Shown piece by piece: positions 244-62,309 of a stretch of DNA of 64,000 nt. The stretch comes from Oscillospiraceae bacterium (lineage in GTDB: Bacteria > Bacillota > Clostridia > Oscillospirales > Oscillospiraceae). The translations under genes were made by a program, and so were the position numbers. Location: assembly GCA_902761055.1 (NCBI GenBank), contig CACWIS010000003.1, positions 52,123 through 116,122 on the forward strand, read 5' to 3'. Below the pieces are notes generated by a model. It saw only the letters and a program-made list of their open reading frames with translations, searched no databases and was not told the DNA's origin. The stretch's first letter is position 1. Each line of letters starts with the position of its first letter.

Positions 244-1166
244 ACCGGCCCGGGCGTCGCGTCCGGATCGGCGGGGGCGGGCTCCTCGCGCTCGCCGATG
301 CCGAGCAGCACGAAGATACCGGCCTTATCCGTCTCGACCAGGATGCCGTCCTTGAGGATGTTCATCCGGTGCGCGACCTTGGGAAGGACGTACTCCTTCT
401 CCGCGGCGTCCCACTTGAAGCGCAGGAGCATCGAACTCTCCGCCCCGCGGATCTGGTCGTCGACCAGCGTGATGCTGATCTTGCCGTTCGGCTCGACCTG
501 TGCGCCGTCGCAGAGGAAGACGAGCTTCATCAGCTTCTGTCCGGACAGCTTGTCGGTGAGACCCAACTCTTCGATCCGCTTATCCAGCGCCTTGTCCCGC
601 TCCTTGTCAAGCTCCTTGAGCCATTCGACGCTGAGCGTGGTGCCGTTGGGAAGCACGCCGGCCTTGGCCTCGACCGTCAGGTGCGTGCGGCCGAACCATT
701 TGTCATACTTGAAGGCCTTGGGCTTCTCGGGCTTGGTCGGCTTTGCGGTCGCTTCCGGTTTCTCGGTCTCTTCCGGTTTCTCGGTCTCTTCCGGCTTCTC
801 GGCCGGCTCGTCGGCCGGCTCGTCGGCATTGTCGCCGGCGGGCGGCTCGCTCGTCTCCGGAGCGGCAGGCGCCTCGCTCGTCTCAGGCTTGGCCGGCGTC
901 TCGGTGACCGCGGGCTCCGCAGGCGCCTGTGTCGCCGCCGGGGGAGCAGGGGGGTCTGCCGGAGGATTCGCCGGGGGATTCGCCGGAGGATCGGTATTGG
1001 TCTCAACGGCCATGCCGGGCTCCTGCTCCGCCACGTCGTCGCTGATGGCGGTCGCGGGCAGGACCATCGAATAGCTCGTCGAGAATACGATCACGAGCGC
1101 CAGGAACAGCGCAAGCATGCGCCATGCCCGACTGCCTCGTGCTTTATTGAAGAACTTAATCGTCAT
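1..1166 (-). CDS. Secreted low-complexity surface protein (3' end outside window)
   Basis: The frame opens at ATG 1164-1166 behind a GAGGAGG site and stays open to the left edge, so only about 388 residues are visible. A positively charged start and one hydrophobic segment (about residues 15-40) form a signal peptide. A Pro/Ala/Glu/Thr-rich linker (about 45-145) with short repeats such as KPEETE follows, then a globular stretch of about 140 residues (about 150-290). The visible part ends in at least 13 near-identical hexapeptides EPTDGE/EPGDGE. I do not recognise the globular part as a named family. Proline- and acid-rich repeats usually span the cell wall, so a wall-anchored or extracellular role is inferred from architecture and from the neighbouring signal peptidase. 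Any anchoring signal lies outside the window. Confidence 0.8.
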   Translation of the reverse strand, partial: MTIKFFNKARGSRAWRMLALFLALVIVFSTSYSMVLPATAISDDVAEQEPGMAVETNTDPPANPPANPPADPPAPPAATQAPAEPAVTETPAKPETSEAPAAPETSEPPAGDNADEPADEPAEKPEETEKPEETEKPEATAKPTKPEKPKAFKYDKWFGRTHLTVEAKAGVLPNGTTLSVEWLKELDKERDKALDKRIEELGLTDKLSGQKLMKLVFLCDGAQVEPNGKISITLVDDQIRGAESSMLLRFKWDAAEKEYVLPKVAHRMNILKDGILVETDKAGIFVLLGIGEREEPAPADPDATPGPVDGEEPTDGEEPTDGEEPTDGEEPTDGEEPTDGEEPTDGEEPTDGEEPGDGEEPTDGEEPGDGEEPGDGEEAEDGEEPGDG

Positions 1167-1205: not shown

Positions 1206-1826
1206 TCAGGATATTCTTCCGAGCAGGCGCAGCGGCCATACCCGGAATACGATCTTGCCCACGATCTGCTCGGCGGCGATGCAGCCGACGGCGGTGTTGC
1301 GTGAGTCGATCGATACGCTTCTGTGATCTCCCATCACAAAGTACCTTGAATCGGGTACCTGATAGGGCAGCTGGATGTTGCATTCACCGAAGGCCTTTTC
1401 CGTGAGGTAAGGCTCGTCGACAGCGACGTTGTTCACATACACCGTGCCATCCTCCGAGATGTCCACCCATTCGCCCGCGTGGGCGATCACGCGTTTTACC
1501 AGAATGTTATTATTATAATAGAATGCAACGACGTCGCCGGTCTCGAGATCCGTGCCCTTGACGGACAGGACGATCTCTCCTTCGGAGAGCGTCGGGGCCA
1601 TCGAGCTGCCGTAGATCTGCAGCACCGGCATCAGCAGCACCGCGATCAGTACCGCCGCGGCCGCCACCGTCACCAGCATGAAGATCGTGCTGCGCAGCGA
1701 GAAAACGAAGCTCCGCTTGTACTTCTCGTGCCGCAGCTCCGCCTGCAGCTGTTCGAGCGTCGGCTCGGCCGGTCCCGGCGGGGCTTGCGCCGTTTCCTGC
1801 CGATCGGCCAGTTCATCCGGACTCAC
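1206..1826 (-). CDS. lepB: Type I signal peptidase
   Basis: A 206-residue membrane serine protease that removes signal peptides from exported proteins (S26A family). One N-terminal membrane anchor (about residues 45-70) leads into the catalytic domain. The catalytic Ser is Ser75 in the SSMAPTL box and the general-base Lys is Lys111 in LVKRVIA. The conserved C-terminal box reads GDHRSVSIDSRN where GDN is usual. The long acidic, proline-rich cytoplasmic N-terminus (about 40 residues) is unusual for short Gram-positive SipS enzymes. Its ATG overlaps the stop of the upstream coiled-coil gene by 4 bp, so the two are translationally coupled. The surface protein follows 39 bp downstream, suggesting this enzyme processes the locally encoded surface proteins. 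Confidence 0.93.
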   Translation of the reverse strand: MSPDELADRQETAQAPPGPAEPTLEQLQAELRHEKYKRSFVFSLRSTIFMLVTVAAAAVLIAVLLMPVLQIYGSSMAPTLSEGEIVLSVKGTDLETGDVVAFYYNNNILVKRVIAHAGEWVDISEDGTVYVNNVAVDEPYLTEKAFGECNIQLPYQVPDSRYFVMGDHRSVSIDSRNTAVGCIAAEQIVGKIVFRVWPLRLLGRIS

Positions 1827-7398: not shown

Positions 7399-7475
7399 GG
7401 GAGCATAGCTCAGCTGGTTAGAGCACCTGCCTTACAAGCAGGGGGTCACTGGTTCGAGTCCAGTTGTTCCCACCA
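7399..7475 (+). tRNA. tRNA-Val (anticodon UAC)
   Basis: Seven-bp acceptor stem (GGGAGCA with TGTTCCC), D arm, anticodon stem CCTGC/GCAGG with TAC at 34-36, T arm with GGTTCGAGTCC, and encoded CCA. First of four tRNAs behind a consensus promoter. Confidence 0.97.
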
Positions 7476-7490
7476 TCGACATCTGTATTT

Positions 7491-7566
<76 letters not shown>

Positions 7567-7569
7567 TCT

Positions 7570-7645
7570 GCGGCCTTAGCTCATCTGGTAGAGCGCCACC
7601 TTGCCAAGGTGGAGGTAGCGAGTTCGAGCCTCGTAGGCCGCTCCA
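7570..7645 (+). tRNA. tRNA-Gly (anticodon GCC)
   Basis: Acceptor GCGGCCT with AGGCCGC, anticodon stem CCACC/GGTGG with GCC, T loop TTCGAGC, discriminator T and encoded CCA. 3 nt after tRNA-Phe. Confidence 0.97.
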
Positions 7646-7650
7646 CAAAA

Positions 7651-7684
7651 AGAAAAGAGGGTCTTCAGAAAAGCCCTCTTTTCT
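7651..7684 (+). terminator. Terminator-like hairpin between tRNA-Gly and tRNA-Cys
   Basis: Perfect 11-bp inverted repeat AGAAAAGAGGG/CCCTCTTTTCT around a 12-nt loop. The T-rich strand is inside the stem and no separate T-run follows, so termination may be partial. Confidence 0.65.
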
Positions 7685-7691
7685 GATATCC

Positions 7692-7767
7692 GGCGCCATA
7701 GCCAAGTGGTAAGGCAGCGGACTGCAAATCCGCGACTGCCCCGGTTCAAATCCGGGTGGCGCCTCCA
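7692..7767 (+). tRNA. tRNA-Cys (anticodon GCA)
   Basis: Acceptor GGCGCCA with TGGCGCC, anticodon stem GCGGA/TCCGC with GCA, T loop TTCAAAT, encoded CCA. It follows a hairpin and I see no promoter of its own, so it probably depends on readthrough. Confidence 0.97.
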
Positions 7768-47157: not shown

Positions 47158-47507
47158 TGGTGGAGATGGGGAGAATCGAACTCCCGTCCGAAAGCGCTTC
47201 CTCAGGAACTTCTCCGGGCGCAGACGGTTATTTACATTCCCTCGTCCGGGCGCAAGCCGTCATGCTCGCGGACGGAGGTAGCTTCATGATGCATGGCACG
47301 CTCAAAGCTTTGCGTACTCACGGTCCCCACTCATCGACGCCTCGGTCCGGGCCGTGGGACTCCCGGAAGAGACGCTCGCGCGATTACGCAGCGAGAAGAA
47401 CAGTGTTGTCGTTGTTCTTTGATTTATAAGCTGCCCGTTTTATGGATGCCAGGCGCATCCGCCCGCTGTTCCTGCCTCCGCACCCCCGTCGAAACCAGTA
47501 CATCCCC
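47158..47507 (-). ncRNA. ssrA: tmRNA (transfer-messenger RNA)
   Basis: About 350 nt. The 5' end GGGGATGTACTGGTTTCGAC and 3' end with GTTCGATTC T-loop and CATCTCC-A-CCA form the tRNA-like domain; GGGGATG pairs with CATCTCC. The tag frame ends at TAA 47384-47386 and reads ...KNNDNTVLLAA; the resume codon is probably the TCA or AAG at 47417-47422. The VLLAA end differs from the usual ALAA. It rescues stalled ribosomes with SmpB, whose gene is 0.7 kb upstream on the same strand. Confidence 0.96.
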
Positions 47508-57112: not shown

Positions 57113-57850
57113 ATGCGGAATTTCAAGCTGACGCTCTGCTACGACGGCACGCGCTACGACGGCTGGCAGCGGCAGGGCAACAGCGACGAGACGATCCAGG
57201 GAAAACTTGAGACGCTGCTGACGCGGCTGCTTGGCCAGAGCGTCGAGGTCGCGGGATCGGGCAGGACGGACGCGGGCGTGCATGCGCTCGAGCAGGTCTG
57301 CAGCTTCCGCGCCGAGACGGACGAGGACTGCGAGACGCTGCTCGGCGAGATCCGCCGCTTTCTGCCCGAGGACATCGGCGCGCTCGCGCTGTGCGATGCG
57401 CCGCCGCGCTTCCACGCGCGGCTGAGCTGCCGGGAGAAGACCTATGTCTATCGCATCTGGAACAGCGCCGAGCCGAACGTCTTTGAGCGGCGCTGGATGC
57501 TGGCCTTTCCGCAGAAGCTCGATCTCGAGGCCATGCGCGCGGCCGCGGCACAGCTCGTCGGCGAGCACGACTTCTCCGCCTTCTGCGCCAACCGGCACAT
57601 GAAAAAGACGGCCGTACGGAACCTCAGGGACGTCGAGATCTCGCGCATGGGCGGAGAGATCCGCATCGCGCTGACGGCGGACGGCTTTCTCTACCACATG
57701 GTGCGCATCGTCGTCGGCACGCTGCTGGAGGTCGGAGCGGGCAGACGCGCGCCGGAGGAGATGCGCGCGATCCTCGCCTCGCGCGACCGGATGGAGGCGG
57801 GGCCGACCGCCCCAGCCCAGGGCCTGACGCTGTGGAGCGTGCACTACTGA
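57113..57850 (+). CDS. truA: tRNA pseudouridine(38-40) synthase
   Basis: A 245-residue enzyme modifying the anticodon arm of many tRNAs. FKLTLCYDGTRYDGWQRQGN (4-23), catalytic Asp53 in AGSGRTDAGVHAL, and the late blocks HDFSAFCANRHMKKTAVRNL and GFLYHMVRIVVGTLLEVG are all present. ATG 57113 has GGGGAGAGG upstream; a TTG six codons earlier is less likely. Standard length. Confidence 0.97.
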   Translation: MRNFKLTLCYDGTRYDGWQRQGNSDETIQGKLETLLTRLLGQSVEVAGSGRTDAGVHALEQVCSFRAETDEDCETLLGEIRRFLPEDIGALALCDAPPRFHARLSCREKTYVYRIWNSAEPNVFERRWMLAFPQKLDLEAMRAAAAQLVGEHDFSAFCANRHMKKTAVRNLRDVEISRMGGEIRIALTADGFLYHMVRIVVGTLLEVGAGRRAPEEMRAILASRDRMEAGPTAPAQGLTLWSVHY

Positions 57851-57890
57851 AGAAGAGAGAAAAGTTTTTCTTCGGACATGGTTTTTCATG

Positions 57891-57919
57891 TTGACATTAC
57901 TGTCGAATACTGTTAAAAT
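57891..57919 (+). promoter_or_regulatory. SigA promoter of the pot operon leader
   Basis: Perfect TTGACA (57891-57896), 17-nt spacer, TAAAAT (57914-57919). Inferred start near 57926. Confidence 0.88.
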
Positions 57920-57925
57920 TTTTGC

Positions 57926-58281
57926 GTCTCAATTGGATAGCGAGTTTATCCGAAGCAAGATAACGACCGCTGCGGCCCCGCGCCGCGGCCAAGGCCACAC
58001 GGACAGCCGGGTCGGACGCCGATTCTCCGCGGGATGCGGCGGCAACTTCTGTTGCCTTATTGATTGAGTTAAAAGCTCAAGTTTTATAAGTTGGTTACTA
58101 TAAACCGGTATACAGACTTGTGAAATGGTCAATAAGAGTAGGAAAAGGTATCTTTGCTGGTAACTCTTGAAACCCGATCGAGACTTGACACGCCCGCCTC
58201 GCAGGAGGCGGGAGAGACAGTCTTTTCAAGTGACGTATGCCGCGCATGCGTCACTTTTCTTTTTTTAGGGAGGACAGGCCG
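57926..58281 (+). promoter_or_regulatory. Structured leader RNA of the potABCD operon (candidate riboswitch/attenuator)
   Basis: About 355 nt with no convincing gene. Hairpins seen are 57935-57951 (GGATA/TATCC), 57969-57989, 58018-58040 (GCCG/CGGC), 58041-58056 (GGCAAC/GTTGCC), 58064-58080 (TTGAG/CTCAA), 58134-58168 (AAGAGT/ACTCTT) and 58193-58212 (CCCGCCTC/GAGGCGGG) enclosed by AGACT/AGTCT. It ends in a full terminator just before the potA ribosome site. ACTTGA (58183-58188) can pair with TCAAGT (58226-58231), which would block the terminator's 5' arm. I could not match it to a known class. A 12-codon Lys/Arg-rich frame (58125-58163) lacks a ribosome site. Confidence 0.7.
58228..58266 (+). 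terminator. Terminator at the end of the pot leader
   Basis: 13-bp stem AAGTGACGTATGC/GCATGCGTCACTT (one G-T pair), loop CGC, then TTCT6. AGGGAGG for potA starts immediately after the T-run, so this hairpin sits where an attenuator would. Confidence 0.9.
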
Positions 58282-59450
<1,169 letters not shown>

Positions 59451-59454
<4 letters not shown>

Positions 59455-60326
59455 AAAAGAAAGCCTCCGGAAACCTCACGCTGATCCGGCGACTGGCGCT
59501 CGCGCCCTATTCGTTCTGGGCGGCGCTGTTCATCGTCGTGCCGCTGATCTTCGTGGCCTACTACGCCTTTACGGATCTGCAGTTCCGCTTTACGACCGAC
59601 AACATCACGCGCTTCTTCACCGCCACCTCCACGGTCGCGGACGAGACGGGCGAGCATGAGGTGCGCACCTATGTGCTGATCTTCCTGCGCTCGCTCAAGC
59701 TGGCCGTGATCTCGACGGTGATCTGCCTGATCTTCGGGTACCCCTTTGCGTATCTGATCTCCAAGGCAGGCGCACGGACGCAGAGCATCCTCATTACGCT
59801 CATCATGATCCCGATGTGGATGAACTTCCTGATCCGAACCTACGCCTGGATGACCATCCTGCAGGACACCGGCATCCTCAACGGCTTCCTCGGCATGCTG
59901 GGGCTGGGCCGCATCCATATCATCGGCACGGAGAGCGCGGTCGTCATCGGCATGGTCTACGATTACTTCCCGTACATGATCCTGCCGATCTACTCGGTCA
60001 TGGCCAAGATGGACGTCAAGCTGCTCGAGGCCGCGCGCGACCTCGGCTGCAACGGCGTCGGCGTGCTGCGCCGCGTCATCTGGCCGCTGAGCCTGCCGGG
60101 CGTGATCTCCGGCGTGACGATGGTGCTCATCCCCTCGATCAGCACCTTCTATATCTCCCAGAAGCTCGGCAACGGCAAGTTTTACCTGATCGGCGACGCG
60201 ATCGAGGGCCAGTACGCGGCCAACAACCTGCACTTCGCCGCCGCCATCGCCTTCATCCTCATGGTCATCCTGCTCATCGGCATGGCCTTCATGCAGCGCT
60301 TCGCCAACAAGCGCGCGGCCGTCTGA
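59451..60326 (+). CDS. potB: Spermidine/putrescine ABC transporter permease PotB
   Basis: A 291-residue permease with six membrane helices. The EAA loop is [28 protein letters not shown] (about 195-220). [36 protein letters not shown] is the diagnostic PotB block. A loop of about 30 residues between helices 1 and 2 ([17 protein letters not shown]) is typical. It pairs with PotC. Confidence 0.95.
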
Positions 60327-60340
60327 AAGGGGGAGAGGAT

Positions 60341-61174
60341 ATGAAAACCGCTTCGAAGATCTATACCGGTCTCGTCATGCTCTTCCTCTTCGCTCCCATC
60401 GCGATCCTGCTCGTGTTCTCGTTCAACGACTCGAAGAGCCTCTCGGTCTTCTCGGAGTTCTCGCTGCACTGGTACCGCGAGCTGTTCCGCGATTCCGAGA
60501 CGCTCGGCGCGGTACGCAACACGCTCGTGCTGGCGGTCTGCGCGGCGCTGCTCTCCACCGCCATGGGCACGGCGGCCGCCGTGGGCATCCACAAGCTCAA
60601 AAGCCGCTATATGCGCGCCGTGATGGACACCGTGACCAATATCCCGATGATCAACCCGGATATCATCACCGGCATCTCGCTGATGCTGATGTTCGTGTTC
60701 GTCGGCCGCCTCTTCGGCGCTGCGACGAGCCTGAACTTCGCGACGATGCTCATTGCGCACATCACCTTCTGCCTGCCCTACGTTATCCTGCAGGTGCTGC
60801 CCAAGCTCCAGCAGATGGACAAGGCCCTGCCGGAGGCGGCGATGGATCTGGGCTGCACGCCGATGCGCGCCTTCCTGAAGGTCGAGGTCCCGGAGATCAT
60901 GCCCGGCATCGTCACCGGCCTCATCATGGCCTTCACGCTGTCGCTCGACGATTTCGTCATCAGCTATTTCACCTCCGGCAACGGCTTCCAGACGCTGCCG
61001 ATCCGCATCTACAACATGACCAAAAAGACCGTCACGCCGAAGATGTACGCCCTTGCGACGATCATCTTCTTCGTGATCCTGTTCCTGCTGCTGCTCTCCA
61101 ATCTCACCGACGCGGACACCGTACAGGCCGTCCGTACGGCGAGAGAAAAGAAAAAAGCGAAAAACAAAGCCTGA
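60341..61174 (+). CDS. potC: Spermidine/putrescine ABC transporter permease PotC
   Basis: A 277-residue permease with six membrane helices. VFSFNDSKSLSVFSEFSLHWYRELF (25-49) and EAAMDLGCTPMRAFLKVEVPEIMPGIVTG (EAA loop, about 165-193) are typical, as is LSLDDFVISYFTSG. ATG 60341 has GGGGGAGAGG upstream. The Lys-rich C-terminal tail is cytoplasmic. Partner of PotB. Confidence 0.95.
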   Translation: MKTASKIYTGLVMLFLFAPIAILLVFSFNDSKSLSVFSEFSLHWYRELFRDSETLGAVRNTLVLAVCAALLSTAMGTAAAVGIHKLKSRYMRAVMDTVTNIPMINPDIITGISLMLMFVFVGRLFGAATSLNFATMLIAHITFCLPYVILQVLPKLQQMDKALPEAAMDLGCTPMRAFLKVEVPEIMPGIVTGLIMAFTLSLDDFVISYFTSGNGFQTLPIRIYNMTKKTVTPKMYALATIIFFVILFLLLLSNLTDADTVQAVRTAREKKKAKNKA

Positions 61175-61196: not shown

Positions 61197-62309
61197 ATGA
61201 AAAAAACGCTTTCCGTCCTGCTCTGCGCCGTGATGCTGCTCTCGCTCTGCGTCCTGAGCGGCTGCGGCTCATCCAAAACGCTGACGCTCAACGTCTATAA
61301 CTGGGGCGAGTACATCTCCGACGGCTCGGAGGGATCGCTTGACACGATCAAGGCTTTTGAGGAATGGTATGCCGCGACCTATGGTCAGAAGCTGAAGGTC
61401 AACTACACGACTTACGCCAGCAACGAGGACATGTATGCCAAGCTCGCCTCCGGCGCCGTCAGCTACGACGTGATCATCCCCTCGGACTATATGATCGCCC
61501 GTCTCGCCAAGGAAAACATGCTCCTGCCGCTCGATTTTTCCAACATCCCGAACTATCAGTATATCGACGAAAGCTTCCGCGGCCTGTCTTATGACCCGCA
61601 GGATCTCTACACGGTGCCTTACACCTATGGCGTGGTGGGCGTGATCTACAACGCCAACGTTGTGGACGAGGCCGACGCCGGCGGCTGGGAGCTGATGTGG
61701 AACGAGAAGTACAAGGGCGAGATCGTGCAGTTCAACAACTCGCGCGACGCCTTTGCCACCGCGATGTACAAGCTCGGCATCGACGTAAACACGACCGACC
61801 GCGCCGAGTGGGAGCGCGCGCTCGCCGAGCTCAAGACCCAGGCGCCTCTGGTCAAGAGCTACGTCATGGACGAGATCTACAACATGATGGAGAGCGGGGA
61901 AGCCGCGATCGGCGCCTACTACGCCGGAGACTACTTCACGATGCTCGACGCACAGGCGGACGGCGTGGACTTGCGCTTCTACTATCCCGAGCGCACCAAC
62001 TATTTCGTCGACGCCATGTGCATCCCGAGCTGCTGCCAGCACAAGGAGCTGGCCGAGATCTTCATCAACTACATGCTCTCCGAGGAGCCTGCGATCGCCA
62101 ACGCGGAGTATATCTACTACGCCTCGCCGAATTCGCTGGTCTACGAAAACGAGGAGTATCGCGAGGAGCTGGGCGAGGAGGCCGTCGCCATCCTCTATCC
62201 GGACATCGAGGATTTCAGCAAGCTCTACAACAGCTACGCCTATCAGAACCTCGATCCCGAGACGCTCGGCTTTGTCAATACGCTCTGGGAATCGCTGAAG
62301 ATCACTTGA
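61197..62309 (+). CDS. potD: Spermidine/putrescine-binding lipoprotein PotD
   Basis: A 370-residue SBP_bac_8-type lipoprotein (lipobox VLSGC, Cys at about 22). Family marks are LNVYNWGEYISDG (about 31), YDVIIPSDYMIARLAKENML (about 89), YTVPYTYGVVGVIYN (about 139) and NYFVDAMCIPSCCQHKELAEIFINYML. The acidic Asp/Glu and aromatic residues that hold polyamine amines are seen in these blocks. GGAGG precedes the ATG. Last gene of the operon, before a strong terminator. Spermidine or putrescine is likely but not proven as ligand. Confidence 0.95.
   Translation: MKKTLSVLLCAVMLLSLCVLSGCGSSKTLTLNVYNWGEYISDGSEGSLDTIKAFEEWYAATYGQKLKVNYTTYASNEDMYAKLASGAVSYDVIIPSDYMIARLAKENMLLPLDFSNIPNYQYIDESFRGLSYDPQDLYTVPYTYGVVGVIYNANVVDEADAGGWELMWNEKYKGEIVQFNNSRDAFATAMYKLGIDVNTTDRAEWERALAELKTQAPLVKSYVMDEIYNMMESGEAAIGAYYAGDYFTMLDAQADGVDLRFYYPERTNYFVDAMCIPSCCQHKELAEIFINYMLSEEPAIANAEYIYYASPNSLVYENEEYREELGEEAVAILYPDIEDFSKLYNSYAYQNLDPETLGFVNTLWESLKIT

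Follow-up and report, generated by a model that had tools for sequence, protein, structure and literature searches.

An extended ldcC-type RNA in the leader of an Oscillospiraceae polyamine transporter operon is a probable transcription-attenuating switch

The window analyzed here, a stretch of 64,000 nucleotides (nt) of an Oscillospiraceae bacterium (assembly GCA_902761055.1, contig CACWIS010000003.1, positions 52,123 to 116,122), carries a potABCD-like polyamine transporter operon behind an untranslated leader. We propose that this leader is a full-length ldcC-type RNA and that it is probably a transcription-attenuating OFF switch of the operon, with its 3' core carrying the switch. By sequence comparison the conserved RNA is about 240 nt long, roughly four times the length of the Rfam model, which spans about a quarter of it. 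Comparison of homologues likewise points to a conserved structure, an association with polyamine genes, a complementarity between the core and the terminator, and an ldcC branch that is optional. The RNA probably turns off genes of polyamine import and synthesis when polyamines are plentiful.

The 5' part of the RNA is catalogued. Rfam family RF02440 (SpF59_sRNA / ldcC RNA, 54 nt) matches positions 57964-58022 over its full model (1-54) with 52.1 bits (E 1.8e-6), above the gathering score of 37.2, and under permissive settings no other Rfam family came near its threshold in 57840-58400. The initial annotation had matched the leader to no known class; as the leader is a member of RF02440 by sequence, which covers its 5' quarter, the element is not a new class. 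The Rfam type 'Gene; sRNA' is an annotation and not a feature of the model, so that membership by sequence stands. The host genome (1.89 Mb, 81% complete) holds one match. At E <= 0.001 the family occurs in 49 of 200 genomes of the host's family and in 18 of 398 of its phylum, of which 48/49 and 18/18 exceed the gathering score; these many-genome searches, like those below, were strictly filtered and absences hold at that sensitivity. An exact-pattern scan of named genomes returned at least 118 stretches, and among the matches listed are Oscillospiraceae, Paenibacillus, Bacillus, Acidaminococcus, Lactococcus and one record titled Synergistaceae (L125). The ldcC motif is reportedly among the 224 candidate RNAs described by Weinberg and colleagues in 2017. 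Two loci have other structured RNAs as neighbors: in L242 a raiA RNA (918-1117, minus strand) lies less than 350 nt from the ldcC RNA (1446-1498, plus strand), and in L241 (2934-3113) two Gut-1 RNA matches on opposite strands lie close to the ldcC locus.

Conservation extends well beyond the catalogued stretch. The motif was placed in 163 of 165 loci (all except L026 and L045), of which 158 had enough flanking sequence for alignment and 137 remained after removal of redundancy; the end of helix P4 was recognized in 126 of the 137, and 61 loci picked for diversity form alignment A1. In the 137 and then the 61 loci, the conserved region begins at a 5' hairpin and includes the ldcC hairpin; it ends about 150 nt beyond the latter with a hairpin that terminates in ACUCU. 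In A1 this region was described by 53 pairs (Table 1): 92.1% of the cells hold standard pairs compared to 86.7% in shuffled alignments, 28 pairs show changes on both sides as compared to 13.7 +/- 1.9, and the covariation score is 0.214 versus 0.122. None of 500 shuffles reached the structure on any of five measures, and sliding the partners by 1-3 columns lowered the pairing to at most 45.1%. RNAalifold, applied unaided to the homologues, proposed 34 pairs, 18 of them with changes on both sides, and the inner hairpin of the ldcC domain shows such changes in 4 of 4 pairs across the 61 homologues. The minimum-energy fold of the window's own RNA holds P3 and P3b without comparative input; for the leader of 341 nt (57926-58266) the folding energy is -134.6 kcal/mol (z = -5.76), a stability that none of 100 shuffles attained. 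The weakest helix is P3d, paired in 36-60% of the cells; in one homologue (L265, 1198-1609, minus strand) an insert of about 150 nt splits the core, and its complementary flanks seem to extend P3d. The terminal helix P1 is kept as a candidate in the potA group: in 27 of 41 non-redundant potA loci its duplex measures -13.05 kcal compared to -9.08 kcal with shuffled 3' strands, and it shows no locus-specific covariation in these 27 loci, as 1219 of 5000 permutations were as good. Among the other potA loci, 7 lacked a recognizable P4 end and 7 lacked the 5' anchor. Thus the leader carries a conserved, covarying structure found in the 5' leaders of functionally related genes, as is typical of riboswitches, and the covariation bears out the initial view of a riboswitch- or attenuator-like polyamine-operon leader. 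A leader peptide was also considered. The frame GTG AAA CGG TCA ATA... spans the core in many loci and is broken by single-base insertions and deletions in homologues (L003 and L004, alignment read by eye), so that no peptide is conserved.

The genes behind the RNA are of one kind. At all 159 loci with at least 450 nt of downstream sequence (4 of the 163 were too short) the downstream gene lies on the same strand and belongs to one of four polyamine families, namely speD (46 loci), potA (45), an Orn/Lys/Arg decarboxylase (39) or a carboxynorspermidine synthase-like gene (29). The speD assignment rests on NCBIfam TIGR03331 (401.8 bits, cut-off 255.8); the best NCBIfam model of the decarboxylase is LdcC (57.0 bits) and that of the synthase-like gene is carboxynorspermidine synthase (420.6 bits), both below their cut-offs. 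The same four gene types follow 99 of 99 loci selected with R1, a covariance model of the 3' core described below; these are the loci for which DNA around an R1 match was taken, not all matches, and many are shared with the 159. Import, decarboxylation, S-adenosylmethionine (SAM) decarboxylation and the carboxynorspermidine route have spermidine-type polyamines as their common product or cargo.

This context bears on the main alternative raised in the initial annotation, an independent small RNA ending at the terminator. The element has its own promoter and a strong terminator, and its Rfam type is 'Gene; sRNA', all of which would fit such an RNA, whereas its location is tied to polyamine genes at every testable locus (159/159 and 99/99, partly the same sites), the complementarity that would serve antitermination is conserved, and potA starts 25 nt past the terminator stem, leaving no room for a promoter. 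As every testable homologue lies upstream, on the same strand, of a gene from one of the four families, we regard an independent small RNA as very improbable; the Rfam label would describe what a prematurely terminated leader looks like. The short distance from the stem to the start codon also excludes a second potA promoter 3' of the terminator, and thus a separate promoter after 58266, which would have spoken against a leader.

The candidate switch emerged from the terminators. These were located automatically, 102 of the 137 loci having one below -13 kcal, and in these the complementarity of the terminator 5' arm to all 10-nt stretches along the leader was scored. On average the arms are most complementary to ACUUGUGA, by 4.07 kcal/mol over shuffled arms, the 5th percentile of all leader positions in the scan being -0.95. 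A duplex test was possible in 101 of the 137 loci (the other 36 had no such terminator or no recognized segment). The pairing of each locus's own segment with its own arm reached -7.77 kcal/mol compared to -7.22 +/- 0.12 for permuted and -3.58 for shuffled arms; 0 of 5000 permutations did as well, also when arms were permuted only within a gene class, counts that are not true probabilities since related loci are not independent, which weighs against our proposal. In some loci the segment departs from the consensus together with its arm: L110 has CUGUGAA with UUCACAG, L024 and L076 are similar, L119 has CCGCUUGU with ACAGGCGG, and L108 and L130 carry shifted versions. Most apparent covariations of the segment, GUAAAA segments facing UUUUACAGG arms, were discarded as not compensatory, the consensus segment pairing at -7.93 and the own segment at -7.94 over 27 loci. 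In the window the segment is ACUUGUGAAA and, since it is the 3' strand of P3b, the conserved fold and the antiterminator would be mutually exclusive. The choice of ACUUGUGAAA between P3b and the terminator arm is supported by comparison and is weak in the window itself. A promoter-like site on the minus strand (58124-58097, 10/12 consensus matches) overlaps this segment within the core and is probably fortuitous.

Several further observations weigh against this proposal. The single best complement of the arm falls in the ACUUGUG columns in only 33 of 102 loci, the signal being an average. Of the 27 departing loci, the own segment is a better partner than the consensus one in only 10, and a gain of more than 1 kcal is confined to L024, L076, L110, L119, L108 and L130. 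P3b, the helix that would sequester the segment, shows few compensatory changes (2 of 11 pairs). Among the loci without the ldcC hairpin, L245, L261 and L266 have no complementarity to the arm, and in L194, a close relative described below, it is slight (-3.9 versus -2.9 for shuffled arms). In the window the antiterminator duplex of -5.9 kcal/mol is weaker than average, and forcing it costs 11.5, 5.3, 13.5 and 18.1 kcal/mol for RNAs ending at 58238, 58245, 58252 and 58266, respectively, relative to the free fold, so that a purely energetic view makes termination the default; folding during transcription is not described by equilibrium values, which in the window lend the proposal no support. 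Finally, the shortest leaders, L216 and L218 (one genus; around 1501-1655), have neither the P3 nor the P3b 5' strand. They retain promoter-like sequence, a small hairpin, ACUUGUGAA, then the GGUCAAUAAGAGU stretch (which differs by one base in L218), P4 and a sequence resembling a terminator; either these leaders are decaying or P4 and ACUUGUGAA act in ways that our model leaves unexplained.

The initial annotation had proposed a different antiterminator, ACTTGA at 58183-58188 pairing with TCAAGT at 58226-58231. The two are indeed complementary, and in the window the linker pairs with the arm better than shuffled linkers do (-7.7 versus -6.0), the free fold being more stable than the paired form by just about 1 kcal/mol for RNAs ending at 58238 and 58245. 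Over the 94 of 101 loci that entered the linker test, however, such pairing is not enriched, the best linker pairing measuring -7.19 compared to -7.73 for shuffled linkers, with the mean running in the opposite direction. Moreover, this pairing can coexist with P3 and P3b and would thus not be precluded by the conserved fold. ACTTGA was therefore rejected as the conserved antiterminator, for which ACUUGUGAAA at 58116-58125 is the conserved partner; it may be a private addition of the window's leader, and that it alone switches this leader seems to us quite improbable.

Based on these data we propose the following model. Transcription would begin at about 57926. With ample polyamine (most likely spermidine) the RNA would take its conserved fold, P3b (58082-58092 with 58115-58125) would hold ACUUGUGAAA, the terminator at 58228-58256 would form and potABCD would remain untranscribed. 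When polyamine is scarce, the ACUUGUG segment would leave P3b to pair with the 5' arm of the terminator, and RNA polymerase would read through. The 3' core, P2-P3-P4, would carry the switch, and the ldcC hairpin would be an optional branch. We infer the direction of control, the identity of the ligand and its direct binding; OFF control by polyamine is expected since genes that supply spermidine-type polyamines should be shut together when these are abundant.

The same attenuator could be governed by a trans factor, such as an RNA-binding protein, that reads the conserved core, with no polyamine bound directly. It is consistent with this that the sequence conservation of P4 and of the ACUUGUGAAA..GGUCAAUAAGAGU stretch exceeds the needs of pairing and that both persist in L216 and L218, which have lost the 5' strands of P3 and P3b. 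Yet one RNA serves four unrelated gene families and reaches distant families of the phylum as well as the record titled Synergistaceae (L125), and we consider a protein reader unlikely.

The distribution of the core argues for its importance within the proposed switch. The model R1 derives from 34 sequences restricted to the 3' part (45 of the 61 loci passed for a 3' alignment and 34 of these were used). It is found in 54 of 200 family genomes, among them all 49 with RF02440, and in 25 of 398 phylum genomes, among them all 18 with RF02440; the core is thus present in 65 of 65 RF02440 genomes, two genomes common to both samples being counted once. In the class sample R1 occurs in 48 of 391 genomes and RF02440 adjoins it in 40 of the 48, that is, in 37 genomes plus the host genome, G066 and G514, which were already positive in the family or phylum samples. 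Over the three samples R1 is found in 121 different genomes, RF02440 in 102 of them and not in 19. No RF02440 match appeared even at E = 10 in 18 of these 19 ldcC-less loci, and L220 gave a weak one; this count leaves out L222, another R1 match in G161 that lies at the edge of a contig. Inspected by eye, L207, L214, L220 and L230 retain fragments of the ldcC stretch (e.g., ACGGACA, AUAUGGAUA) and none is visible in the rest. L194 is an ldcC-less potA leader from the window's own genus (PotA 81% identical; core at 1501-1635, minus strand). Judged by eye, P1, the 5' hairpin and a P2-like hairpin are recognizable there, the ldcC branch is missing and the -10 box lies 38 nt before the core as compared to 121 nt in the window, which makes it a natural deletion variant. 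As the core accompanies the hairpin in all 65 genomes, whereas the hairpin is absent from 19 of 121 genomes with the core, these counts favor the core as the indispensable part, and the uncatalogued 3' part looks like the essential core.

Were the ldcC hairpin the polyamine aptamer and the 3' core its expression platform only, hairpin-less loci would have lost control by the ligand. The hairpin is present in 102 of the 121 core genomes, and the longest series of invariant columns in A1 lies within it, an invariance that is partly by construction since many loci were gathered by an exact pattern in that stretch. Against such a division, conservation of the core persists in loci that lack the hairpin (R1 scores of 115.0 bits in L194 and 132.6 bits in L232), and of the 15 ldcC-less loci (out of 19) that have a terminator, 12 keep an arm whose pairing with the segment surpasses that of shuffled arms. 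We find it doubtful that the hairpin is the aptamer and the core its platform only. It is conceivable, and we suggest it only tentatively, that the 3' core is itself a widespread Bacillota polyamine riboswitch, to which the ldcC hairpin is added as an accessory input that can be gained or lost, the whole forming a modular two-part sensor.

The sequence of the locus confirms the promoter, the leader of about 355 nt that separates it from potA, with transcription starting near 57926, and the terminator touching the potA ribosome-binding site, all of which the initial annotation had described. Upstream lies a gene that we take to be truA-like, ending at 57850. Inspection by eye of the alignment of 137 loci shows a -10-like TGnTAnAAT at its 5' end as well. 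The terminator abuts the potA Shine-Dalgarno sequence AGGGAGGA (58267-58274), followed by the ATG at 58282. The best named models of the potB-, potC- and potD-like genes are polyamine transporters, all below equivalog cut-offs. Elsewhere the window holds a transfer-messenger RNA gene (47158-47507, minus strand) and a cluster of four tRNA genes (7399-7764, plus strand).

Table 1. Coordinates of the leader elements and of the operon, in window positions
Feature	Position	Strand	Basis
Sigma-70-type promoter, TTGACA-N17-TAAAAT, TG before the -10 box	57891-57919	+	11/12 consensus matches
P1 5' strand GUCUCAAUUGG, candidate terminal helix (potA group)	57926-57936	+	Complementary to 58174-58184; in window fold
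P0 hairpin, GGAUA-...-UAUCC	57935-57951	+	Sequence; equivalent in relatives by eye
ldcC domain, GACC/GGUC helix around variable hairpin and AAGGCCACACGGACAGCCG	57963-58012	+	RF02440; optional branch
Conserved 3' core (model R1)	58041-58166	+	121.5 bits; sole match in host genome (81% complete)
P2 hairpin, GGCAAC-...-GUUGCC	58041-58056	+	5 pairs counted, all with changes on both sides
P3 5' strand UUAUUGAU, partner 58128-58135	58057-58064	+	7 of 8 pairs counted, 98.1% of cells paired
P3a hairpin, GAGU-UAAAA-GCUC	58066-58078	+	4 pairs, all with changes on both sides
P3b 5' strand UUUUAUAAGUU, predicted to sequester the antiterminator segment, partner 58115-58125	58082-58092	+	11 pairs, 92.4% of cells paired
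P3c hairpin, GGUU-...-AACC	58093-58106	+	4 pairs, 3 with changes on both sides
ACUUGUGAAA, P3b 3' strand and predicted conserved antiterminator strand	58116-58125	+	Complementary to terminator 5' arms
P4 hairpin, AGAGU-...-ACUCU	58135-58167	+	Outer helix, 99.6% of cells paired
P1 3' strand CCGAUCGAGAC	58174-58184	+	Window fold, duplexes at potA loci
ACTTGA, possible additional local antiterminator, window leader only	58183-58188	+	-7.7 versus -6.0 kcal for shuffled linkers
GC-rich linker hairpin, CCCGCCUC-GCAG-GAGGCGGG	58193-58212	+	Sequence and fold; within variable linker
Intrinsic terminator	Stem 58228-58256 (13 pairs), T run to 58266	+	CAAGU 58227-58231 at 5' arm, predicted antiterminator target
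potA	58282-59454	+	NF043075, 566.1 bits, cut-off 550
potB-like permease	59451-60326	+	Best NCBIfam match PotB, 191.1 bits, under equivalog cut-off 348
potC-like permease	60341-61174	+	Spermidine/putrescine permease/substrate-binding model 223.6 bits, PotC 216.5; both below cut-off
potD-like polyamine-binding protein	61197-62309	+	PotD, 158.8 bits, under cut-off 582

Whether RNA sensing of polyamines is common in bacteria has so far been uncertain. Here one RNA architecture precedes genes for import, decarboxylation, SAM decarboxylation and a carboxynorspermidine synthase-like enzyme across many families of the phylum, and it comes with a concrete candidate antiterminator and with natural deletion variants, which separate two candidate parts of the sensor; with these in hand the question of sensing is directly testable with one template and its ldcC-less congener. 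Our data also suggest that the boundary of the catalogued family was drawn around a dispensable part. The Rfam model contains neither the extended architecture nor the conserved antiterminator, nor does it show that the catalogued hairpin is optional. We found no paper on the extended structure or the ligand of the ldcC RNA in a search that left most subscription papers outside, so that its absence from print is not shown.

Compared to RF02440, to which the 5' domain of the window's leader and of most homologues belongs, the RNA described here is an extended version (a 54-nt model versus a conserved RNA of about 240 nt) in which the 3' core reaches the threshold of no Rfam family, and it was filed as a small RNA, whereas its context here is that of a cis-acting leader. 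By its description the potE motif (WRC-18-1; PMC8632094) is similar, as this candidate RNA likewise precedes a transporter gene related to polyamines. The closest parallel in logic is the validated spermidine riboswitch, a SAM-I variant (Salvail et al. 2023, PMC10853860). It is an OFF switch of ldcC, speD, speE and speB in which a terminator competes with an antiterminator and the ligand favors termination. The leader analyzed here was considered as a SAM-I variant and set aside, as the SAM-I aptamer fold was not found, the region 57840-58400 giving no match to SAM-I up to an E value of 5. The two systems would therefore share the logic that we propose and differ in the aptamer, which there is derived from SAM-I; and whereas the consensus given there was drawn from 13 representatives, the 3' core of the window's RNA is found in 54 of 200 genomes of the host's family.
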